A stretch of 55,063 nucleotides of DNA from an uncultured Bradyrhizobium sp. (lineage in GTDB: Bacteria > Pseudomonadota > Alphaproteobacteria > Rhizobiales > Xanthobacteraceae). The DNA lies in the NCBI RefSeq assembly GCF_936928535.1, contig NZ_CAKZHY010000017.1, positions 1 through 55,063 on the forward strand. Reading direction: 5' to 3'. Positions 15,859 through 48,855 of the stretch are shown in pieces (position 1 is the first letter of the stretch; the number at the start of each line of letters is the position of its first letter). The position numbers were made by a program, and so were the translations under genes. The notes under the pieces are model-generated. The model saw only the letters and a program-made list of their open reading frames with translations, searched no databases and had not been told where the DNA came from.

Positions 15859-17046
15859 TTACACCGCCACCTGCTCGCCGAGATACGACACCGCGGCTTC
15901 GAGCCCGCCCTTGCCGTGCGGGATCTTCAGCGCGTTGAGGCCGACCTCGATGACCCCCAGGGTGCCGAGCAGCATCGGCGCGTTGACATGGCCCATATGG
16001 GCGATGCGGAAGGCCTGGCCGGAGAGATCGCCGATGCCGGTGCCGAGCACGACGCCGCATTTCTCCTTGCAATAGCGCTGCAGCACCGCGGGATCGTGGC
16101 CGGTGGTCATGGTCACCGTGGTCACGGTGTTGGAGCGCTCATGCGGTTCGGCGACGTTGAAGCCGAGCACCTGGCCCTCGGTCCATGCGCCGACTGCGCG
16201 GCGCGTGGCCTCGCCGAGCAGGCTGTGGCGGCGGAAGGCGTTCTCCAGCCCTTCCTCGTGGATCATGTCGATCGCCTTGCGCAGCGCGAACAGCAGATGC
16301 ACCGGCGCGGTGCCGGCATATTTGCGGTAGTTCTCGGTGCCCTCGCGCTCGCTCCAGCTCCAATAGGGCGTCGACATGTTGGCCTTCTTGTGCACCTCCT
16401 GCGCGCGTGCGCCGGCCGCGACGAAGCCGAGGCCGGGCGGCGTCATCAGGCCCTTCTGCGAGCCGGACATCGCGACGTCGACGCCCCATTTGTCCATCTC
16501 GAACGGCATGCAGCCGAGCGAGGCCACGGTGTCGACCATGTACAGCGCCGGATGGCCGGCCGCCTTGATCGCCTTGCCGATCGCCTCGATGTCGTTCTGC
16601 ACGCCGGAGGCCGTATCGATCTGGACGACGACGACGGCCTTGATCTTGTGTTCGGTGTCGCGGCGCAGCCGCTCCTCGACCTCATGCGGCCGCACCGCGC
16701 GGCGCCAGTCGCCCTTGAGCACCTCGACTTCGGCGCCCATCAGGGCTGCCGCATTGCCCCAGCCGATCGCGAAGCGTCCGCTCTCCAGCACCAGCACCTT
16801 GTCGCCGCGCGACAGCACGTTGCTCAAAGCGGCTTCCCAGGCGCCATGGCCGTTGGCGATGTAGATGTAGGACTTGCCTTTGGTTGCGAACAGACTGGAG
16901 ATGTCTTGGAGAAGGCTTTCAGTCAGCTCCAGCATCTCCTTGGAGTAGATGTCGATCGCCGGACGATGCATCGCCTGGAGCACCGCGTCGGGCATCGTGG
17001 TGGGTCCGGGGATGGCCAGAAATTCCCGGCCCGCGCGAACGGTCAT
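15859..17046 (-). CDS. Class V aminotransferase (serine-glyoxylate / alanine-glyoxylate type)
   Basis: 395 residues from ATG 17046 with AAGGA eight bases upstream; an open extension to 17133 has no such site. IPGPTTMPDAVLQAM, NGHGAWEAALSN, the Asp of VDTVASLG (residue 172) and the PLP lysine K198 in MSGSQKGLMTPPG identify the SGAT/AGT group. It transfers the amino group of serine (or alanine) to glyoxylate with pyridoxal phosphate, giving hydroxypyruvate and glycine. That reaction belongs to the serine cycle or to photorespiration-like glyoxylate handling. No serine-cycle neighbours are present here, so the physiological role is open. Confidence 0.92.
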   Translation of the reverse strand: MTVRAGREFLAIPGPTTMPDAVLQAMHRPAIDIYSKEMLELTESLLQDISSLFATKGKSYIYIANGHGAWEAALSNVLSRGDKVLVLESGRFAIGWGNAAALMGAEVEVLKGDWRRAVRPHEVEERLRRDTEHKIKAVVVVQIDTASGVQNDIEAIGKAIKAAGHPALYMVDTVASLGCMPFEMDKWGVDVAMSGSQKGLMTPPGLGFVAAGARAQEVHKKANMSTPYWSWSEREGTENYRKYAGTAPVHLLFALRKAIDMIHEEGLENAFRRHSLLGEATRRAVGAWTEGQVLGFNVAEPHERSNTVTTVTMTTGHDPAVLQRYCKEKCGVVLGTGIGDLSGQAFRIAHMGHVNAPMLLGTLGVIEVGLNALKIPHGKGGLEAAVSYLGEQVAV

Positions 17047-17151
17047 TGCTATCTTCCTTGTGTCGTGAAGACTGTCTGGTGGGTCACTGGCTGGTTGTTC
17101 TACGCGGCCAGGCGGCCCGAGAAAAGCGCGCAAAACGCAGGTCTGGGGCTC

Positions 17152-17877
17152 TCATCGCTTGGTCTCGCGGCAGCCGGCGGCCTCGGCCTCCTCGACCGAG
17201 CAGAACCAGCGGGTGCCCTTGCTGATCTTCATCTTGATCTGGGCGTACCAGCGGCTGGTTGGCTGGTGGTAGATGCACTCGCCTGACGAGTTGACGTTGC
17301 CCTTGATGGTGCAGTCCGGCGACGGCGCGACCGGGCCGGAGGCCGAGGCGAGCAGCACCGCATGGGCGCCCTCGGGCGGCTTGGTGGCGCCCAGGATCGC
17401 GGTCTTCTTGTTGCGCACGCGCCAGTCCCAGGGCGCGATGAAGGCGCCTTGCCACATCCCGGCTTTGGCCTCACGCGCGGCAGCCTCGTCGGGCACGTAG
17501 TCCTTGGAGAGGCGGGTATAGGCCAGCGCCCAGCCGCTGCGCACCAGCCATTTCTGGATGTCCTCGCCGCCGACCTCGCAGCGCGCCACGGTGCGGCCAC
17601 GTCGGTCGATCGAGCGGGCATGGCAGACCCAATTCTTGCCCTCCGCGTGTTTGGCGAGTTCGTCGCGCGCGGCGACGCCGCAGGTCCAGCGTTCGCTCTT
17701 GGTGTTGAGGCAGAGCTGATCGAGCGAGGGCGCGTCGATGCCGCCGAGCCGGATCCGCGTCGTGCCGATCAGAACGGAATCGCCGTCGCGGACCTTTGCG
17801 GTGCCGGTGATATCGGCGGCCAGCGCCAGCGAGGGCAAGCTGAGCAAAGACAGCGCAATCAGGAATTTTCGTAACAT
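17152..17877 (-). CDS. Exported SNase-like protein with C-terminal Cys-rich module
   Basis: 241 residues from ATG 17877, chosen because it gives a clean signal peptide (MLRKFLIALS...ALALAAD). Residues about 22-145 are a staphylococcal-nuclease-like domain: RDGDSVLI (Ca site Asp), IRLGGIDAPS and DRRGRTVARC. Compared with S. aureus nuclease, R43, D48 and R95 fit Arg35, Asp40 and Arg87, but Ser51 stands where catalytic Glu43 should be. The C-terminal 55 residues (IKGNVNSSGECIYHQP ... WFCSVEEAEAAGCR) form a small Cys-containing module found after such domains in envelope proteins. It may be a binder rather than a nuclease. The frame continues to 17919, without a better start. Confidence 0.82.
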   Translation of the reverse strand: MLRKFLIALSLLSLPSLALAADITGTAKVRDGDSVLIGTTRIRLGGIDAPSLDQLCLNTKSERWTCGVAARDELAKHAEGKNWVCHARSIDRRGRTVARCEVGGEDIQKWLVRSGWALAYTRLSKDYVPDEAAAREAKAGMWQGAFIAPWDWRVRNKKTAILGATKPPEGAHAVLLASASGPVAPSPDCTIKGNVNSSGECIYHQPTSRWYAQIKMKISKGTRWFCSVEEAEAAGCRETKR

Positions 17878-18038
17878 GCCGGTCCGCGTTATCTGGGAAC
17901 ACATTGATAAGCCGCGCAATTGTGGTCGGCTTTGGGCTATCAGGCCAGCATATGCCGAACAAAGAGGCTTTCAACTTCCCGTCATTGGCGGGCGAGTGGC
18001 GAGCAGGGAGTGGCGAATAGCGCGCACTGCACCATTGG

Positions 18039-19769
18039 CTATTCGCCATTCACAATTCGCCTGCGCGCCACCGCCAGTCCCATCAGCACGAACGCCGACG
18101 TCACTTCCGGGCCGCCGACCAGGATCCGCGTCGGGGTCTTCATCTTGTTCCATTCATAGGCGCGGAACGGACCGCGGCGGCCGCCTTCGCCGACGGCGCG
18201 AGTGATCACGTTCAGCGCCGGCGCGAAGGCGCGCGGGTCTGCACCGAGATGACCGAGCGCGATCAGCGCCAGCGCGGCGTCGAACACGTTCATCTCCGCG
18301 GCCATCAGCTCGCCCTTGACGTAGGAGAGCACGCGGTGGCGGATGAAATCGAAATCGCCGTCGGGATCGATCGCTGCCTGCGCTGCCAGCGGCAACGCCA
18401 GGAAGGCCGCATAGCAGCGGCCGAAATAGGCGCTGTAGAGCTCCGGCAGATAGTAGATGTGCGAGCGCGGATTGGCGAAAGCGCCGCTCGCAGCGAGGCG
18501 CTTCTGGAAGCCGATGATGCGATGCACGGTCGCAAGCCGCGCCGGCGTCTCCAGGATCTTCCAGCGCGCAAGGTTGCGAAAGCTCACCTCGAGAATGTCG
18601 AGATTGAGTGTCGGGTCGAGATCGTTGCCGTAGGGACGCTCGCCCCTGAGGTTATCGATCCAGGTCGCGACTCCGCCTTCGTAGTCGATGTTGTCGTTGA
18701 GCGGCACCGTCACGCGCGGCTCGTTGACGCCGGCCTGCACCTGGTAGCCCGCGTAGAAATCCAGCAGCGGCTGGTCGATGATCGCATCAAGGCAGCCGGC
18801 CTGCGTCGCAGCAGAGATCGAGCACGCCGTGGTGTCACAGTCCGGTACATAGACGCCGAAGCCGAGGTCCTGCTTGATCTGGGCGAAATAGCGCGAGAAG
18901 CGCGGATGCGGCGCCGGCGCGAGCGCCGTGATGACATTGAAGCGTGCGCCGTCTGCGCCTTGCACTTCCTCGCGGCTGATATTGACGCAGAAATCGACCA
19001 TGTCGGCGATGGCGCGCTCGGCCGCGATCTTGTCATCAGGCGAAGCGAGCCCGGTCTCGATGTAGCTCAGCAACGCCTCGATGAAGAAGGCATCGTAATA
19101 GGCCGAGCGGTGGCGGATCTGCACCGGCTCCCACATCGGCTCGGCAATCCCGCGCCAGGGCGGATTGACGACGGCGCGCGCGGGCGAGCGCGCAATGAAG
19201 ACGCGGGCGAGGTTGAACAGCAGCGAGGAGTTCTTGTAGCCCCGCGCATTCAATCCCGTCAGCGCCATGGTCAGCTCGCGCCCGCGGAAATCAGGATCGC
19301 CGATCAGGTTAAAGGCGGCATAGGTCGGCAGGAAGCCATGCTTGCCGTAAGAGCCGAGCAGATGCTGTGCGCAATCGCGGATCACGGCGTCGATCTGCGC
19401 CGGCGCCGGCATCGCGCCGACGAATGCGGTCGGCGGCGGCTTTGGATGGTCGAGCGCGATGGTGTCGACGAGTTCGGCCACGGGCGCGCCGACCGCGGTC
19501 CAGTCGGGCTCGGCATCGTCGCGGGCGCGGACCAGAGCCTCGCGCAGACGGGCCAGTTTCCCTTCGTCGCGCAGCTCGGGCAAGCCGGCCCGCCGCAGCA
19601 GCATCCGCAATGCGGGATTGCCGAGCGCGGTCTTGTAAAACTTGGCCAGATGCGGATCGCCGCCGACCGGAATGGACAATACAGGATCGCAGACGTCGTA
19701 AAGCGAGGGGCCGTCCTTGCGGGCCGTCAGCGCCCGGCACGCGGCACCTGCGAAATAATGAAAGCTCAT
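18039..19769 (-). CDS. Helical-barrel protein with DxDTT motif, class II terpene-cyclase-like
   Basis: 576 residues from ATG 19769; the frame stays open to 19970, but a palindromic Crp-type site lies inside that extension and the added residues look non-coding. The protein is rich in paired helices with Tyr/Trp-containing loops, as in alpha/alpha barrels of prenyltransferases and squalene cyclases. VPDCDTTACSISAATQAG (D310-C-D312-T-T, bases 18828-18842) resembles the DxDD/DxDTT acid motif of class II terpene cyclases, with the general-acid Asp kept. No isoprenoid genes adjoin it and no signal peptide is seen. The assignment rests on motif and composition only; an alternative is a glycoside-processing helical barrel. 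Confidence 0.72.
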   Translation of the reverse strand: MSFHYFAGAACRALTARKDGPSLYDVCDPVLSIPVGGDPHLAKFYKTALGNPALRMLLRRAGLPELRDEGKLARLREALVRARDDAEPDWTAVGAPVAELVDTIALDHPKPPPTAFVGAMPAPAQIDAVIRDCAQHLLGSYGKHGFLPTYAAFNLIGDPDFRGRELTMALTGLNARGYKNSSLLFNLARVFIARSPARAVVNPPWRGIAEPMWEPVQIRHRSAYYDAFFIEALLSYIETGLASPDDKIAAERAIADMVDFCVNISREEVQGADGARFNVITALAPAPHPRFSRYFAQIKQDLGFGVYVPDCDTTACSISAATQAGCLDAIIDQPLLDFYAGYQVQAGVNEPRVTVPLNDNIDYEGGVATWIDNLRGERPYGNDLDPTLNLDILEVSFRNLARWKILETPARLATVHRIIGFQKRLAASGAFANPRSHIYYLPELYSAYFGRCYAAFLALPLAAQAAIDPDGDFDFIRHRVLSYVKGELMAAEMNVFDAALALIALGHLGADPRAFAPALNVITRAVGEGGRRGPFRAYEWNKMKTPTRILVGGPEVTSAFVLMGLAVARRRIVNGE

Positions 19770-20179: not shown

Positions 20180-21028
20180 ATGAATGTAAGGCAGCTCGAC
20201 ATTTCCAGACGTTCGATTGCGCTCGCCGCGGCCCTCATCGGCACGGTGTCGCTGGCGATCGGCGCCCATGCTGCCCTCAACATGCGTTCGCTCGACGCCG
20301 CCAAGGCGGTTTCGACCGACCAGATCACTGATACGGTCGGCCAGACCTCGCGTCTCGCGCTCGTCATCGGCAATGGTCATTATCCCGACGCCAGCGCGCC
20401 GCTGACGCAGTCGATCAACGACGCGCGCGCGCTCTCCTCCAGCTTGCGCAAGAACGGTTTTGACGTCGACATGGTGGAGGACGCGAGCAAGGACGACATG
20501 GTCCGCGCCGTCAACCGCCTGAAGTCGCGTATCAAGCGCGACACCACCGTCCTGCTGTTCTTCGGCGGCTATGGTGTGCAGGCCGGCCGCGAAAGCTACA
20601 TGCTGCCCGTCGATGCCGTGATCTGGAAGGAAAGCGACGTCCGTCGCCAGGGCGTCTCGATCGAAGGCGTGCTCGAGATGATGAAGGAGAAGGGCGCCAA
20701 GGCCAAGCTCGTCGTCGTCGATGCCTCGCGCCGCAATCCTTACGAGCGCCGCTTCCGCTCTTACTCGCACGGCCTCGCGCCGATCGGCACGCCCGACAAT
20801 GCGCTGATCCTGTCGTCCGCTTCGCCCGGCAAGGTCGTCGACGACGGCAAGGGCGAGCACTCGACGCTGGTCACCGAGCTGCTCAACAACCTCAATGCGC
20901 AGGGCACCGCGGAAAGCGTTTTCAACAAGACCCGCGTCGCCATCGCCCGCGCCTCCGAAGGCGATCAGGTCCCGACGGTGTCGTCCTCGCTGCTCGAGGA
21001 CGTGCATTTCGATCAGGCCGGCGGCTAG
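20180..21028 (+). CDS. Caspase-fold protein without the His/Cys dyad (pseudocaspase 1)
   Basis: 282 residues. A signal or membrane segment (about 11-32) is followed by a peptidase C14 (caspase) domain: RLALVIGNGHYPD, NDARALSSSLRKNGFDV, LLFFGGYGVQ and VVVDASRRNPYERRFRS. In active bacterial members the last two read SGHG and DACRNNP. Here Tyr131 replaces the catalytic His and Ser183 replaces the catalytic Cys, so cysteine-protease activity is very unlikely. It would be periplasmic or membrane-tethered. It stands convergent with an orphan HlyD-type adaptor gene. A longer paralog with the same two losses is at 47326-48855. Confidence 0.9.
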   Translation: MNVRQLDISRRSIALAAALIGTVSLAIGAHAALNMRSLDAAKAVSTDQITDTVGQTSRLALVIGNGHYPDASAPLTQSINDARALSSSLRKNGFDVDMVEDASKDDMVRAVNRLKSRIKRDTTVLLFFGGYGVQAGRESYMLPVDAVIWKESDVRRQGVSIEGVLEMMKEKGAKAKLVVVDASRRNPYERRFRSYSHGLAPIGTPDNALILSSASPGKVVDDGKGEHSTLVTELLNNLNAQGTAESVFNKTRVAIARASEGDQVPTVSSSLLEDVHFDQAGG

Positions 21029-36576: not shown

Positions 36577-39024
36577 CTAGCCGCGCCGCCGCGCGGCGGT
36601 CGCGTCGACGATGTTGTCGACGTCCTCGCGCCAGCTCAGGATCTCCATCGCCAGCACCGGGTGATTGAAGCCCTTGAGCTGGAGATCGTCGAGCGCGCGG
36701 GCCTCGACGTGAGGCTCGACCATGCCGTAGACGCGGCGGCTGACCACGATCTGGTTGGCGTGGGCCTCGCTGCACAGGCGCGAGGCGAGGTTGGTGACGC
36801 TGCCGATCGCGGCGTATTCCAGCCGCTGCTCGAAGCCGACCTGGCCGAGCGTGGCATAGCCGAGCGCGATGCCGATGCCGAACCCCAGGCTATGCCCGCG
36901 ATTGCGCCAGCGCTCGGTCAAGGGGCCGATCGTGTCGCGCATCTCCACCGCCATCTTCACGGCGCGCGCGGTGTGGTCCTCGAACTGGATCGGCGCATTG
37001 AACAGGATCATCACGCCGTCGCCGGCGTATTTGTCCAGCGTGCCCTCATATTTGAAGATCAGCTTGCCGAGCGCGGCGTGATATTCGCGCAGCACGTTCA
37101 TCGCCTCTTCCGGCTCGGTGGCTTCCGTGAACGCGGTGAAGCCGCGCAAATCGCAGAACACCACGGTGACCTCGCGGCGCTGGCTGGTGAGCAGCCCCTC
37201 GGGGCTGTCGGATGACGCGATCAGCTGCGCTACCTGCGGCGCGAGGAAACGCTCGAGCTTGCGGATGCGCTCGATCTCGCCGAGCTGGGTCGCGACGCGC
37301 TCTTCGAGCGATCTGTTCCAGTCCTTGAGTTGCTCGGTCTGCTGCTTGAGCTTGTCGGCCTGGGCGCGCACGGTCTCGTTCGCGGTCTCCAGCGCGTGGC
37401 TCTTGTGGTCGACCTCGGTGAACAGGCGCGCATTGCGCATGGCCAGCACCGCCTGGTTGGCGAAGGTGCGCATCAGGCCGGTGAGGCTGCCGGCGAATTC
37501 GCCGCTGGCGCGGCGCAGCACGACCAGCGCGCCAAGCGTGCCCTGCTGGTCGACCAGCGGCACCACCAGCACGGAGTGGAAGCCGGCATCGACCGCGACG
37601 TCGCGCAGCGGCTGCTCGGTAGCCTGCGCGAGATCGGCAATCGCGATCGGCTCACCGCGTGCGGCGGCATCGCTCAGGATGTTCTGACCTTCGTCGATGG
37701 TAACATGGGCGCCGGTGACCGATTGGTCGATGCCGTCTGCCTCGACCAGGTTGAAGCGGCGGGCCTCGGCCTCATAGCCGTAGATCAACACCGCATCGGC
37801 GTGGCTGATCTCCAATGCGCGGGCGGCGATCGTAGGCAGCACGGCGTTGAGATCGAGCGAGGACGACACCGCGCGGCCGACCTCTTCCAGCACCTTCAGC
37901 TCGTTGATCGACTGGGCGAGGTCGCGGGTCCGCGCCTCGACCTTGGTCTCGAGGTCCGTGTAGGTCTCCTGGAGCTGGCCGGCCATGCGGTTGAACTGGC
38001 CGGCGAGCTCCTCCAGCTCGTCCGAGGTGTGCACGTCGATGCGGTGGCTGAAGTCGCCCTCGCCGAGCTTGTGCGCGCCATCGCGCAGTGCGGTAATCGG
38101 AATGATCATGCGGCGCGCCAGCAGCGTGCCGGCAAGGATCGCGACCAAAAGCCCCATGCCGATCAAAAGCGCGATGCGGACGAGCTGGTCGCGGATCGGC
38201 GTCAGGGCCTGCGTGGTCGGTTGCTCGAACATGACAGTCCAGCCGAGCTTCGGCACCGCGCTCGCAGCTGACAACACCGAATGCCCGTTGACGTCGGTGC
38301 CCGATGTCTCCGCCTCGCGGCCGGGCGCGATCGCGGCCGCGACTTGCGGCAGTTTCGACACGTCCGTGCCGACATCGGGCCCCTTCGACGATGTCGCCAG
38401 CACGCGGCCGCGCGGATCGACCACATAGGCGAAGGCGGCCTTGCCGACCTGGTTGTCCGACAGGAAGTCGGAGAGAAAGCCGAGATCGACCTCGGCCACG
38501 GTGACGCCGGCATTGAAACCGGAATGCGCCACCGAGATCGACATCGTCGGCCTCTCATCGACGAAACTGGCCGGCGAGTAGCTCACCCCGCGCGCCACCG
38601 TTTCGGTGAAGCGCATGTCGCGGGAGAGGTCGGCATTGTTGCCGGTCGTGGTCGACTGGCGCGAGACGCGCAGCACCTCGCGGCCGTCGCCATTGAGCTG
38701 GTACAGCTGGGTGACGACTGACACCTGCTGCAAGAGCTGGGCGTAGTCGGTGCGACGCTTCTCGATCGTGTCCCGGCTGGCCGTCGTAACCCAGCTGATC
38801 TGGCGCTCGAGCTCCGAGATCGACTGCTCCATGCGGCGGGCGACCGCCTGGGCCTTGTCCTCGAGCCCGCCTGTCAGCTGGGTCCTGGTGGCGCGATAGG
38901 AGATCCAGGTCTCCATCGCGCCGTTGACCGCGAGCACGAACACGACGAGGCCGACGAGGGAGACGACATATTTGGCGAACAGGCCCTCGCGCAGAAACCA
39001 GGTCTTGTCTTTCGCTCCCGCCAT
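36577..39024 (-). CDS. Membrane class III adenylate/guanylate cyclase (Cache-HAMP-GAF-CHD)
   Basis: 815 residues; GAGAGGA precedes ATG 39024. Membrane helix (about 18-38), extracytoplasmic Cache sensor (40-285), helix (290-310), HAMP (310-365), GAF (about 385-535), coiled coil (540-600) and a class III cyclase domain (615-800). Metal Asps are in VVFCDLRGFTAF and DKYAGDGVMILFNAP; substrate Lys is in GTLDKYAGD. The transition-state Asn is in VTNLASRL, but the residue seven before it, usually Thr or Asp for ATP, is Ala (EYAAIGSVTN). It probably makes cAMP in response to an external signal. A Crp-type regulator gene lies 2.5 kb downstream of its 5' end. Confidence 0.92.
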   Translation of the reverse strand: MAGAKDKTWFLREGLFAKYVVSLVGLVVFVLAVNGAMETWISYRATRTQLTGGLEDKAQAVARRMEQSISELERQISWVTTASRDTIEKRRTDYAQLLQQVSVVTQLYQLNGDGREVLRVSRQSTTTGNNADLSRDMRFTETVARGVSYSPASFVDERPTMSISVAHSGFNAGVTVAEVDLGFLSDFLSDNQVGKAAFAYVVDPRGRVLATSSKGPDVGTDVSKLPQVAAAIAPGREAETSGTDVNGHSVLSAASAVPKLGWTVMFEQPTTQALTPIRDQLVRIALLIGMGLLVAILAGTLLARRMIIPITALRDGAHKLGEGDFSHRIDVHTSDELEELAGQFNRMAGQLQETYTDLETKVEARTRDLAQSINELKVLEEVGRAVSSSLDLNAVLPTIAARALEISHADAVLIYGYEAEARRFNLVEADGIDQSVTGAHVTIDEGQNILSDAAARGEPIAIADLAQATEQPLRDVAVDAGFHSVLVVPLVDQQGTLGALVVLRRASGEFAGSLTGLMRTFANQAVLAMRNARLFTEVDHKSHALETANETVRAQADKLKQQTEQLKDWNRSLEERVATQLGEIERIRKLERFLAPQVAQLIASSDSPEGLLTSQRREVTVVFCDLRGFTAFTEATEPEEAMNVLREYHAALGKLIFKYEGTLDKYAGDGVMILFNAPIQFEDHTARAVKMAVEMRDTIGPLTERWRNRGHSLGFGIGIALGYATLGQVGFEQRLEYAAIGSVTNLASRLCSEAHANQIVVSRRVYGMVEPHVEARALDDLQLKGFNHPVLAMEILSWREDVDNIVDATAARRRG

Positions 39025-39279: not shown

Positions 39280-41334
39280 TCACCGATTAAACAGCTGTCG
39301 CATCACGTCGTTCATCGGCTGGCTGTCCTGCTGTGCCTGAGGCGGATCCTGGGTCGGCGGCGCGGGCGAGGCCTGCGGCGCCGGCGTGGTCGGGCTGCCC
39401 GGCAGGCTGCGGCTTCGGCCGGTGCCGTTTGCCGCCCCATTCGAGAGCCCTTGCTGGATCAGATTGCCGATCGCCTCGCCCAGCTGACCGCCGAGCAAAT
39501 TGTTCTGCCCCTGCCCCTGCCCCGGCTGCTGGACTTGCGGATTGGCAGTGCCGGCCGCATTGCTGCCGCCCGGGGCGGCGCCGCCGAGACCGAAGCTGTT
39601 CAGGATATTGCCGAGCCCGGCGCCGTCAGGGCCGAACAGGCCCTTGCCCATCTCGCGCAGCTTGGCATAGGCGGCCTCCGGATTGTCGAGCATGCCGGCC
39701 ATGTCAGGGTAGATCCGCGGCTGCGACCACGCGCCCGTGATCATCACGGGAATGCCGAAGCCGACCGGTTCGGAGGTGCGCCCCTGGCCTTCCGTCGTCA
39801 TCACCAGCTTCGGCTCGACGCGAAAGCCCATCATCTTGGTGTCAAGCGCAATGGTGCCCGCGCCGGTGACGCGCACCAGCGGCCCGATCAAATTGAGATC
39901 GGTCGTCACCGCCTGGCCCTTGTCGATGCGGAACGAGGCCGACAGTTGCGACAGATCCGTGCTCTGCTCCTGGCCGGCGCTCTGGTTATCCTGCCAGCCC
40001 GACAGCGTGCCCGAGGTCAGCGAGCGGATCATCTGGGCGACGTTGATGCCGCGGATGGCCCCGTCCTGGAAATTGACGAAGGCGGTCCCTTGCATGTTGG
40101 CCATCAGCGCGCGCTGGCTGGTGCCTGCGCTGCGCAGCGCGAGCTTGGCTTGCAGCTTGCCGTCGATCCGGTCGAATTCGGCAAGGCCCTGCAGCAGCGG
40201 CAGCGCGCGCACGCCGACCAGGTCGGAATGCATCGCAAAGCTCGGCGCGCCGCTGGTTGCATCGAGGATCACTTCGCCCGAGACCTGGCCGCCATAGGCG
40301 CCGAGATTGGCAGTGCCGGCCTTCAGGATGCCGCCAGCAAGCTTGGCGTCGAGCGCCAGCGGCGCAAGACGGGCCTCACCGATGACGGCTTCATTGGCCG
40401 AGATCCTGATCTGCGCGTCGACATAATTGAGCCCGGACACGTCGATCGGTGCATCGCTCCAGGGTTGGCCGGCCACGCCGTCAGCCGATTTCGCCAGCGG
40501 GATTGCGAGCCGCTGGAAGTCGAGGTCGAGCTTCACCAGCGGCTTGCTCGCGGTATCGACCGAAGCCCAGCCGTTGAAGGCACCATCGCCGAGCGTGCCG
40601 TTGACGCCGTTGATCATCACGACTGGGCCGCTCATCCGCAGCTCGGCATGGCCTGCGAGCTGCGACTTCAGCACGTCGGGCATGTCGACGGCGAAATCCA
40701 CCGGCACGGTCTGCCGCTCGATCGGCGGCGCCGGGGTGGTCGCCTTGATGTCGAATTTGGTCGGGTGTTCGCCCACCCGCGCGGTTCCGGCGATACTGAC
40801 CTTGCGGTCCTTGCCGGCGACGACGTCCGCATTGATTGCGCTGATGCGGCCTTCGATACGATCGCGTGCGCGCGCGAATGCGACTTCGCCATTGGTGATC
40901 CTGACGCGATCGATGATGGCGCCGTCCATGTCGACGGCGAGCGGCTTTTGCGAGGTGTCGGTGTTGGGCAGGCGCTCGCGCAGCAGCGGCTGGTACAGCA
41001 CGGGATGGGCGACGACGATCTCGCTGATCTCGGGATGACCCGACCACACGCTTGCGAGCGACATGTCGGCCTGTACGGTTTCGATCGTCACGCGCGTAAT
41101 GCCGCTGCGGTCCTTGGGATCGGCAAGTGTGAGGTCGTTCAGCGTGACGTTCAGCGTCGGCCACAGGCTGATCTTCGCGGTTCCGTCGATCGACAGGCGA
41201 TATCCGGTCGCCTGCTCGACGCGCGAGGCAATCGTCGCGGTCAAAAAGCCCGAGGGAACCCCGATCACCAGCAGGAGAACGATCACGGTGATGATCGCGG
41301 CCACCGCCGCGCCGGCGAATTTCACTGCTCTCAT
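39280..41334 (-). CDS. AsmA family inner-membrane protein
   Basis: 684 residues. An N-terminal membrane helix (about 7-29, AAVAAIITVIVLLLVIGVPSG) is followed by the AsmA N-terminal block (ATGYRLSIDGTAKISLWPTLNVTLNDLTLAD) and a long beta-rich periplasmic domain, ending in the AsmA_2-type region (GVPVMITGAW-like GIPVMITGAW at 530) and a Gln/Pro-rich tail. Members act in outer membrane lipid transport or assembly. It is divergent from the Crp-type gene and may share its promoter region. Confidence 0.9.
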   Translation of the reverse strand: MRAVKFAGAAVAAIITVIVLLLVIGVPSGFLTATIASRVEQATGYRLSIDGTAKISLWPTLNVTLNDLTLADPKDRSGITRVTIETVQADMSLASVWSGHPEISEIVVAHPVLYQPLLRERLPNTDTSQKPLAVDMDGAIIDRVRITNGEVAFARARDRIEGRISAINADVVAGKDRKVSIAGTARVGEHPTKFDIKATTPAPPIERQTVPVDFAVDMPDVLKSQLAGHAELRMSGPVVMINGVNGTLGDGAFNGWASVDTASKPLVKLDLDFQRLAIPLAKSADGVAGQPWSDAPIDVSGLNYVDAQIRISANEAVIGEARLAPLALDAKLAGGILKAGTANLGAYGGQVSGEVILDATSGAPSFAMHSDLVGVRALPLLQGLAEFDRIDGKLQAKLALRSAGTSQRALMANMQGTAFVNFQDGAIRGINVAQMIRSLTSGTLSGWQDNQSAGQEQSTDLSQLSASFRIDKGQAVTTDLNLIGPLVRVTGAGTIALDTKMMGFRVEPKLVMTTEGQGRTSEPVGFGIPVMITGAWSQPRIYPDMAGMLDNPEAAYAKLREMGKGLFGPDGAGLGNILNSFGLGGAAPGGSNAAGTANPQVQQPGQGQGQNNLLGGQLGEAIGNLIQQGLSNGAANGTGRSRSLPGSPTTPAPQASPAPPTQDPPQAQQDSQPMNDVMRQLFNR

Positions 41335-41569: not shown

Positions 41570-42244
41570 ATGAGCAAGCAGGCCGAATTTGCGGTCATTC
41601 TGAAAATGAATGCCATGTTCGCCGACCTCGGTACGGACGAGCTTCACCGGCTGTCCAACCTCTGCCACACCCAACATCTGGCGAACGGTGAGGTGTTGTT
41701 CCAGAAGGGTGACCCCGGTGATGCGCTGTTCGGCGTGCGCCGCGGCCAGGTCCGCATCGAGACCGGCGCCTCCGACGGCAGCCGGCTGACGCTGAATTTC
41801 ATGGGCCCGGGCGATCTGTTCGGCGAGGTCGCGGTGCTGGACGGCCAGAGTCGCACGGCGGATGCGACCGCGGGCGAAGTCAGCGAATTATTCGTGCTGC
41901 GGCGCGAAGATTTCCTCGCCTTTCTCGAGCGCGAGCCGAAGGTCGCGATCAAGATCATCGCGCTCCTGTGCCAGCGTATCCGCTGGCAAAGCGAACGCAT
42001 GGAAGAGTCGATGCTGCAGCCGCTGCCGGTGCGGCTGGCGCGACGGCTCTGCGCGCTTGCCGCCGATTTCGGCTCCGAGGTGCACATCTCGCAGGAACAG
42101 CTCGGTGTCTTCGTCGGCGCAGCGCGCGAGAGCGTCAACCGCCAGCTTCAGGCCTGGCGCAAGGAAGCCATCCTGGATCTGCAGCGCGGGCGCATCCTGC
42201 TCAGGAACATGACCAAGCTGACGGCGATCGCGCGGAACGAGTAG
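41570..42244 (+). CDS. Crp/Fnr family transcription regulator
   Basis: 224 residues. A cyclic-nucleotide-binding beta barrel (about 12-125) with the phosphate-binding cassette GDLFGEVAVLDGQSRTADATA (Glu and Arg kept), the dimer helix (130-150), and a C-terminal winged helix with ISQEQLGVFVGAARESVNRQL. No Cys cluster of FNR type is present, so cyclic nucleotide rather than oxygen sensing is likely. It is closest in style to the cAMP-responsive group. Candidate sites are at 19865, 41463 and 49102. Confidence 0.92.
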   Translation: MSKQAEFAVILKMNAMFADLGTDELHRLSNLCHTQHLANGEVLFQKGDPGDALFGVRRGQVRIETGASDGSRLTLNFMGPGDLFGEVAVLDGQSRTADATAGEVSELFVLRREDFLAFLEREPKVAIKIIALLCQRIRWQSERMEESMLQPLPVRLARRLCALAADFGSEVHISQEQLGVFVGAARESVNRQLQAWRKEAILDLQRGRILLRNMTKLTAIARNE

Positions 42245-47325: not shown

Positions 47326-48855
47326 TCAACGCACTCCGTAACTTGCGAATTCCTGCACAATGTTCGGATCCATCGCCTTGGCATTGGCGATGTCGAGCGA
47401 GCCTTCCTGCGCCGAGCCGTTGCGCTGCTTGGCCACGCCGCGGCCGTAGAGCGAGGAGGTCAGGCGCGGGTTGATCCGCAAGGCAGCGTCGAAATCGGCA
47501 ATGGCGTTCTTCACCGCCCCCGATTTGAGGTTCACCAGCCCGCGGCTATCCAGCGCATCGACGAAATTCGGCCGCAGCCGCAGCGCCTCGTTGCAATCCT
47601 TGAGCGCGCCCTGGAGGTCGCCCACCACGGTCCGGGTCCAGCAACGATTGTTCAGGGCCTCGACGTCCTTCGCATTGATCCTGAGCGTGTCGTCGAAATC
47701 CTTGATGGCAAGGGTGTAGGCGCCCTTGCTGGCATAGACCTGGCCACGCCGGTACAGCGCGTTCACGTCGTCAGGATTGGCGGCGATCTTGGCCGTCAGG
47801 CCCTTGATGGTGGGGTCTTCCGCCAGCGCGGCCGCGCTCGGCCCGCCATCTGCGTTCGGCGCAGGAGCGGTCTCGGCCGGTTTCGCCGGCGGTGGTGGTG
47901 GCGGCAGTGCGGCTTCCACCTGTGGCTTCGGCGGTGGCGGCGGTGCTGGGGGCGCCGGCGGCGCGGGCGGATTGTTCGCAGCCACGGGCGCCGGTGGTGG
48001 GGCCGGCGGAGCCGGAGGTGCCGGAGGCGGGTTGGTCGCGACCGCAGGCGGGGGTGCGGGGGGCGCCGGCGGCGGTGTCGTTGCCGTCGGTCGCGAGCCG
48101 CTAGCGCCCGGAATGAACGAGAAATCCTCCGCAAGCGAGGACGAGATCCACGGCACCTGCTCGCCGCGCGAGGCGCGGGTGACGCCCATCTTGGTGCGGT
48201 TCAGCGTTTCCTCCGCCATCAGGTCGGGGACGCGGATTTCCTTGAGCAGCTCCTGGACGAACAGGCTGTGGTCGCCGCCGGCATCCGACACGACGGACGC
48301 CAGTGCGGCCGAATACATCACCAGCGTGCCGTTCGGCGCGATCACAGGGGTCAGGCCCGCCGAGAAGCTGCGGAACCGGCGCTCGAACGGATTGCGCCTG
48401 GAAGCGTCGATCAGCGCGATCTTGACGCCGGCGCCACGGGTGTTGAGCTCGCCCAGGATTGCCTCGATGCTGAACCCGTCGCGGCGGACGTCGGATTCGG
48501 TCCAGATCTGCGCATCGACCGGGATCATGTAGCTCTGGCGCGCCGACTGGATGCCGAACCCGCTGTAGAACAGCAGCGCCACCGAGCCCGGCTTGATCTT
48601 GCTGTAGAGCTTGTCGAAGGCGCGGCGCATGCCGTCGCCGGTCAGGTTCTCGCCGACCTCCACCGCAAAGCCGTCGCGCTTGAGCTCGTCGGCGACGTCA
48701 CGGACGTCGTTGATCGGCTCCTTCAGCGGGCTGTCGGCGTCAGGGTATTTGGCATTGCCGATCACCAGCGCGAAGCGGTCGCCGGCCGCATGCGACGGCG
48801 CGGTCGGAGCGAACAAGACAAGCAAAGGCAGCAGAAAAAGGAAGCGAGTTTTCAT
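47326..48855 (-). CDS. Caspase-fold protein without the His/Cys dyad, with TPR domain (pseudocaspase 2)
   Basis: 509 residues. Signal peptide (to about 24), caspase (C14) domain (25-250), a Pro/Ala-rich linker (255-345, runs of PPAPPAPPP) and three or four TPR repeats (350-500, e.g. DVNALYRRGQVYASKGAYTLA). The expected SGHG reads SGFG (Phe100 for His) and DACRNNP reads DASRRNP (Ser152 for Cys), so peptidase activity is very unlikely. The TPRs suggest a protein-binding scaffold in the periplasm. It is upstream of the OmpA-like gene on the same strand, and paralogous to 20180-21028 in the caspase part. Confidence 0.9.
   Translation of the reverse strand: MKTRFLFLLPLLVLFAPTAPSHAAGDRFALVIGNAKYPDADSPLKEPINDVRDVADELKRDGFAVEVGENLTGDGMRRAFDKLYSKIKPGSVALLFYSGFGIQSARQSYMIPVDAQIWTESDVRRDGFSIEAILGELNTRGAGVKIALIDASRRNPFERRFRSFSAGLTPVIAPNGTLVMYSAALASVVSDAGGDHSLFVQELLKEIRVPDLMAEETLNRTKMGVTRASRGEQVPWISSSLAEDFSFIPGASGSRPTATTPPPAPPAPPPAVATNPPPAPPAPPAPPPAPVAANNPPAPPAPPAPPPPPKPQVEAALPPPPPPAKPAETAPAPNADGGPSAAALAEDPTIKGLTAKIAANPDDVNALYRRGQVYASKGAYTLAIKDFDDTLRINAKDVEALNNRCWTRTVVGDLQGALKDCNEALRLRPNFVDALDSRGLVNLKSGAVKNAIADFDAALRINPRLTSSLYGRGVAKQRNGSAQEGSLDIANAKAMDPNIVQEFASYGVR

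Follow-up and report, generated by a model that had tools for sequence, protein, structure and literature searches.

Gene organisation at the locus

The window, i.e. the whole stretch of 55,063 nucleotides that was analysed, contains on its minus strand an open reading frame at positions 18039..19769, which runs from the ATG at 19769 to 18042, is closed by the stop codon at 18041-18039 and encodes a protein of 576 residues (P0002). This focal gene is likely ths, the gene of the tetrahymanol synthase (Ths). A preliminary description of this DNA, which gave no strand, had drawn attention to the peptide PDCDTTACS in a helical protein of this length; it is present there and extends from P309 to S317.

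Downstream of the focal gene lies a conserved neighbour, a staphylococcal-nuclease-like gene (17152..17919, minus strand, assigned with Pfam); 93 of the 97 loci compared contain it, with some of the loci being truncated. Next comes a gene for a class V aminotransferase (15859-17133), likewise a conserved downstream neighbour, whose product resembles the L-aspartate--glyoxylate aminotransferase BhcA with a score of 328 bits, under the cut-off of 650. On the other side, the upstream region is shared with a divergent caspase-domain gene (20180..21028, plus strand, PF00656). This gene lies at most 2.2 kb away in all 97 loci (some from one genome), including 80 of 80 named ones. Among 20 more distant loci, 14 also have it near the focal gene, three of these on the far side of hpnP. 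A second caspase-domain protein, which also possesses TPR repeats, is encoded at 47326-48855. Furthermore, the window contains genes for an adenylyl/guanylyl cyclase with Cache, HAMP and GAF domains (36580-39024, minus strand) and for an AsmA protein (39283-41334, minus strand), with a Crp-family regulator beside both. As the preliminary description had stated, no isoprenoid genes adjoin: no isoprenoid-pathway neighbour was detected among the window genes scanned with Pfam.

A Crp-type site before the gene had also been described, and this observation extends to the relatives. The palindrome TGTGACGTCAGTCACA (19881-19866, minus strand) is located at -112 from the ATG, and 69 of 80 named loci carry a motif TGTGA-N6-TCACA with at most one mismatch at a distance of 109-192 bases upstream of the gene. 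It is perfect in 21 loci, and 44 different spacers occur among the 69, while shuffled upstream regions contained such a palindrome in a mean of 0.71 and a maximum of 6 of 80 cases. Of 20 more distant loci, four also carry it. The Crp-family regulator mentioned above (41570..42244, plus strand; cNMP_binding and HTH_Crp_2 domains) is a candidate reader of the palindrome; together with a class III nucleotide cyclase, it is encoded 17-22 kb from the focal gene. Judged from the sequence, a Crp-type regulator, putatively this one, probably controls expression of the focal gene from the conserved site. The palindrome could serve either gene, because the upstream region is common to the focal gene and the divergent caspase-domain gene.

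Distribution of the family

The own genome (7.5 Mb, G000) showed a single match to the focal gene. At E <= 1e-3, 2189 homologues were obtained with P0002 and 2186 with a second query. Among public species genomes, the best 80 of 249 relatives comprised 78 titled Bradyrhizobium, one titled Bradyrhizobiaceae bacterium and one titled Frankia sp. Within the own family, 78 of 248 genomes carry the gene, and these are spread over 12 of 47 genera. Phylum-wide, 10 of 398 genomes carry it, all of the own family, and a profile of close members identified it in 7 of 299 phylum genomes; no match outside the own family was obtained among these 398 and 299 genomes, none of which is known as belonging to the Methylococcales. 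Named homologues include those of Rhodopseudomonas, Rhodoplanes, Tardiphaga and Rhodovulum sp. PH10, and further homologues were found in metagenome-assembled genomes named, among others, Verrucomicrobia, Dongiaceae and Microvirga. The plasmid collection contained no match to the focal gene, and among viral contigs one locus (L002, 75% identical) was detected.

Two entries deserve a separate comment. The contig titled Frankia sp. RB7 (L023) carries a 93% identical copy in a Bradyrhizobium-like gene order, and this assembly is probably mislabelled or contaminated. In G615 (C1:4651023-4652745), the focal gene is present in two pieces in different frames, as is the squalene-hopene cyclase (SHC) gene of the same genome, which is probably due to sequencing errors.

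A profile of 80 diverse members (A2) also detected the gene in another family of the phylum, where six of the 125 genomes searched carry it; all six belong to genus g279 (G789, G792, G799, G800, G805 and G809; loci L222-L227). Their proteins are 30-32% identical to P0002. This second family was reached via G102, and it may consist of ammonia oxidisers, because G102 carries three AMO/pMMO-type genes. SHC is present in all six g279 carriers, yet also in 10 of 10 tested relatives without the focal gene, and in two neighbourhoods of the second family (L228, L229) none of the scanned proteins was a hopanoid gene product.

Predicted fold of P0002

Sequence comparisons gave no link to known cyclases. 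P0002 matched no model of Pfam or NCBIfam at E <= 1, including any HAD or class I partner domain, and a Pfam search with 80 family members at E <= 10 yielded six scattered weak families only. In the PDB, phmmer returned one designed protein (E 0.2) and the profile search returned nothing. HHalign comparisons to 11 SHC and three CPS sequences gave no signal (probability 1.8 for SHC and 0.3 for the Bradyrhizobium CPS, with shallow profiles on both sides). Since homology is not detectable at the sequence level, it is only claimed in the following that the protein folds and works like a class II cyclase, and not that it descends from one.

In the structure prediction, the fold check proposed in the preliminary description gave an alpha/alpha barrel of the class II terpene-cyclase type (beta domain). 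According to secondary structure and structural matches, the predicted barrel comprises residues 118-576 (18042..19418, minus strand), and a helical N-terminal part (residues 1-117; 19419..19769, minus strand) lies outside of it; the five best structural matches begin at residues 115-117. By a hand count of helices, a small insert (residues 145-222; 19104..19337, minus strand) is located between the first outer and the first inner helix, where SHC carries its gamma domain.

The best structural matches were DxDTT-type drimenol synthases, which use FPP, although TM-scores to AsDMS were low (0.39-0.47). Alpha/alpha barrels also occur in enzymes acting on sugars or polysaccharides, and in such a protein the DxDTT motif would be coincidental. 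This is very improbable for P0002: the best terpene cyclases were ahead by up to 7 Z units, all 15 Foldseek matches at E <= 1e-3 were terpene or triterpene cyclases, and the genes that co-occur with the focal gene are hopanoid genes (see below).

Proposed acid motif and further conserved residues

The proposed general-acid motif is DCDTT (D310-T314; 18842-18828, minus strand) with D312 as the middle Asp. The bare motif is weak evidence, because 0.4% of shuffles of P0002 contain a DxDTT by chance (probability 0.004), and the case for it therefore rests on conservation. The conservation set consisted of 241 proteins, i.e. the query and 240 homologues with 57-92% identity to it (the best 120 of 2189 with P0002 and the best 120 of 2186 with the second query, E <= 1e-3). 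D310, D312 and T313 are identical in 241 of 241 proteins and T314 in 239, while position 311 is free (C, F, W or G). All six g279 homologues possess the motif as PDTDTT. The middle Asp, which had been described as kept, is the same in all close and distant members compared.

Other positions are also invariant in all 241 proteins, namely H437, Y439, Y440, K542, K544 and R548. H437, Y439 and Y440 belong to a HIYY motif (H437-Y440; 18450..18461, minus strand) just before the fourth inner helix. In the g279 proteins this motif reads xKYY, so that Y439 and Y440 are kept in 6 of 6; R548 stays and K542 and K544 are replaced by Arg. According to PMC12365925, AsDMS cannot do without D331, D333 and Y427 in catalysis, and it needs Y426 to bind the head group. 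Given these roles and the position of the Tyr pair at the start of the fourth helix, Y439 and Y440 are candidates for counterparts of Y426 and Y427 by analogy. A SHC-type QW pattern, sought with a loose expression, gave one chance-like match.

Motif placement was done by hand counting on the predicted secondary structure, without a residue-level structural alignment. The inner helices were taken to comprise residues 223-238, 311-323, 386-398, 442-457, 495-508 and 554-573. DCDTT opens the second of these six helices, presumably the place of DxDD in SHC, a second Asp motif opens the third and the YY pair (439-440) the fourth. The second Asp motif, DLDPT (D383-T387; 18609..18623, minus strand), raises the question whether Ths, with the same class II fold, could use Asp383 or Asp385 as the acid instead of Asp312. 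NDLDPT starts an inner helix and, with D383 and D385, is invariant in each of the 240 close homologues in which these positions are covered; moreover, when forced to align the two, HHalign places NDLDPT and not DCDTT over the DxDDTA of SHC, though without significance. On the other hand, all six g279 homologues (30-32% identity) have NEICPG in place of NDLDPT and keep DxDTT, and by the hand count NDLDPT belongs to the third inner helix, whereas DxDD of SHC belongs to the second. An acid in NDLDPT is accordingly most improbable. The role of Asp312 as the candidate acid is strengthened, because the distant homologues keep DxDTT.

Probable link to hopanoid metabolism

Of the 78 genomes that carry the focal gene, 76 also have SHC, and among the near-complete genomes all 67 do. 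Three genomes counted among the 76 (G591, G481 and G577) showed only a SHC-like gene with 36-37% identity; they also possess an HpnP-type gene. If these assemblies are complete, Ths would depend there on this second, SHC-like cyclase. HpnP-type genes (E <= 1e-100) occur in 77 of the 78 focal genomes versus 48 of 170 others (Fisher p 2e-29, a value which ignores shared descent). As minor support for this co-occurrence, the match lists of the focal gene and HpnP (120 and 117 entries) have 8 contig sizes in common, with a mean of 0.88 and a maximum of 4 in shifted controls.

In the Rhodoplanes group (genus g221: G447, G472, G492, G523 and G406), 4 of 5 genomes possess a radical SAM gene directly upstream of the focal gene on the same strand, with approximately 175-205 bases between the matches. 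Its product contains B12-binding, radical SAM and DUF4070 domains, which are also the domains of HpnP and HpnP-like proteins according to PMC10697835, and in JGI annotations some homologues of this product carry the name hopanoid C-2 methylase. Against NCBIfam, it gave sub-threshold models only. In the own genome, a 63% identical relative is located on C97, with SHC at a distance of about 9 kb. For true HpnP a limit of about 55% similarity is given in PMC12583986, with other radical SAM proteins below 34%. Because of the relative near SHC and because it passes this reported limit, the neighbour is read as HpnP. A single contig of G524 carries the focal gene together with shc and hpnP within 45 kb. 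In the focal genomes outside these Rhodoplanes-group cases, hpnP is not adjacent to the focal gene.

A gene for an AsmA-type envelope protein follows the focal gene in three loci of the Rhodoplanes group (L127, L128 and L129), which would suit a non-catalytic protein with a cyclase-like barrel that binds or transports hopanoids. Such a function is very improbable: homologues with as little as 30% identity still share the acid motif and many polar residues unchanged, which would be needless for a mere binder, and ths is reported as a synthase gene (PMC11005386, PMC12583986).

Probable identity with the tetrahymanol synthase

The gene of the bacterial tetrahymanol synthase has reportedly been known since 2015 (Banta, Wei and Welander). 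The assignment of ths as the gene for the synthase in the two reports just mentioned cites this study (Banta et al. 2015). Diploptene is given as the substrate of Ths (PMC11005386), and the bacterial enzyme is described as carrying out a ring expansion on the SHC product (PMC8172173). Both ths and tetrahymanol have been reported in Bradyrhizobium, Rhodopseudomonas and Rhodoplanes (PMC12583986), and homologues of the focal gene bear all three of these names. With its 12 genera of the own family, the named metagenome-assembled genomes and the second family, the focal family is wider than the three ths genera. For methanotrophs, MEALZ_1626 of Methylotuvimicrobium alcaliphilum served as the ths query (PMC8590665).

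Chromosomal position was considered as well. In B. diazoefficiens USDA110, ths is reported as blr0371 and shc as blr3004, both rightward on the same strand. With the genome size and gene number of this strain, their separation is 31.7% of the genome. In ten single-contig genomes (four of six named genomes searched for SHC, in which both genes share one large contig, and six others), the distance between the focal gene and shc was 25-37% of the genome in 10 of 10 cases and 31.7% in B. barranii 1S5. The distance thus fits blr0371, whereas the strand relative to shc differs from blr0371 in 6 of 10 genomes, where the two genes are on opposite strands. Position lends weak support to this identity, because the strand fits in only 4 of 10 (G690, G691, G693 and G214). 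The assignment as Ths rests on the genus distribution, the co-occurrence with SHC and hpnP, and the adjacency of hpnP in the Rhodoplanes group, all of which point to ths; like the focal gene, Ths is found in these genera and is tied to SHC.

The class II cyclase put forward in the preliminary description is supported by the predicted barrel, the invariant DxDT and the best match to drimenol synthases. The other part of that proposal, that the protein is a new orphan enzyme cyclising FPP, GGPP or squalene, is not supported, because the genera, the co-occurrence with SHC and hpnP and the hpnP adjacency point to ths. A class II terpene cyclase other than Ths that takes an open-chain substrate, for example FPP or GGPP, is nevertheless the alternative with the most in its favour. 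The nearest structures use FPP, and the invariant K542, K544 and R548 (Arg, Arg and Arg in the distant homologues) could bind a diphosphate. The hopanoid context indicated by SHC, HpnP and the adjacent hpnP stands against it, as does the lack of a recognised HAD or class I partner domain in P0002, and we consider it unlikely.

Besides Ths, three known enzymes come closest to P0002. In AsDMS, a HAD domain and a terpene-cyclase beta domain are fused in one protein (PMC9128629, PMC12365925), whereas P0002 has no recognised HAD; the identity of the two is about 14% over the aligned residues, and the proposed substrates differ. SHC carries a large gamma domain and a DxDDTA motif, while P0002 has DCDTTA, an insert of only 78 residues and no detectable sequence homology to SHC. 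The squalene-tetrahymanol cyclase (THC) of ciliates forms the same end product, tetrahymanol, but acts directly on squalene, and the ciliate and bacterial enzymes are called convergent in the review PMC8172173. No published fold or active site of bacterial Ths was found in a limited literature search, and its mechanism was described there no further than "ring expansion". A "THS" is named, without data, among the DXDD class II enzymes in PMC11610947, which may be the ciliate enzyme. If the focal gene is ths, the gene is already known, and the predicted fold and the candidate acid would be new within the limits of this search.

Proposed mechanism and implications

Diploptene is formed by SHC. 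We propose, with a probability of roughly 75%, that the focal gene is ths and that its product is a class II barrel, as modelled, in which Asp312 of DCDTT would protonate diploptene for ring expansion. Asp312 would re-protonate the C22=C29 double bond of diploptene, which would yield the hopanyl cation. A carbon shift in ring E would then convert the five-membered into a six-membered ring and give the gammaceranyl cation, and quenching of this cation by water would lead to tetrahymanol. Class II chemistry would in this case be applied to a closed pentacycle and not to an open chain.

With somewhat less confidence, we consider it fairly probable that Ths represents a class II branch not recognisable by sequence, in which the DxDTT acid is reused on a cyclised pentacycle. 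Bacterial gammacerane-type lipids would then arise via two class II cyclases in series, and Bradyrhizobium would regulate the second of them through the Crp-type site. Gammacerane, a fossil marker in wide use, derives from tetrahymanol and is read as a sign of water-column stratification or high salinity (PMC8102298). If the proposal is true, the mechanism of Ths could be tested with a few point mutants, ths would become recognisable by a structural signature, and the class II cyclases would include an enzyme whose action follows cyclisation. From the conserved Crp-type site, moreover, one could predict when Bradyrhizobium makes its tetrahymanol.
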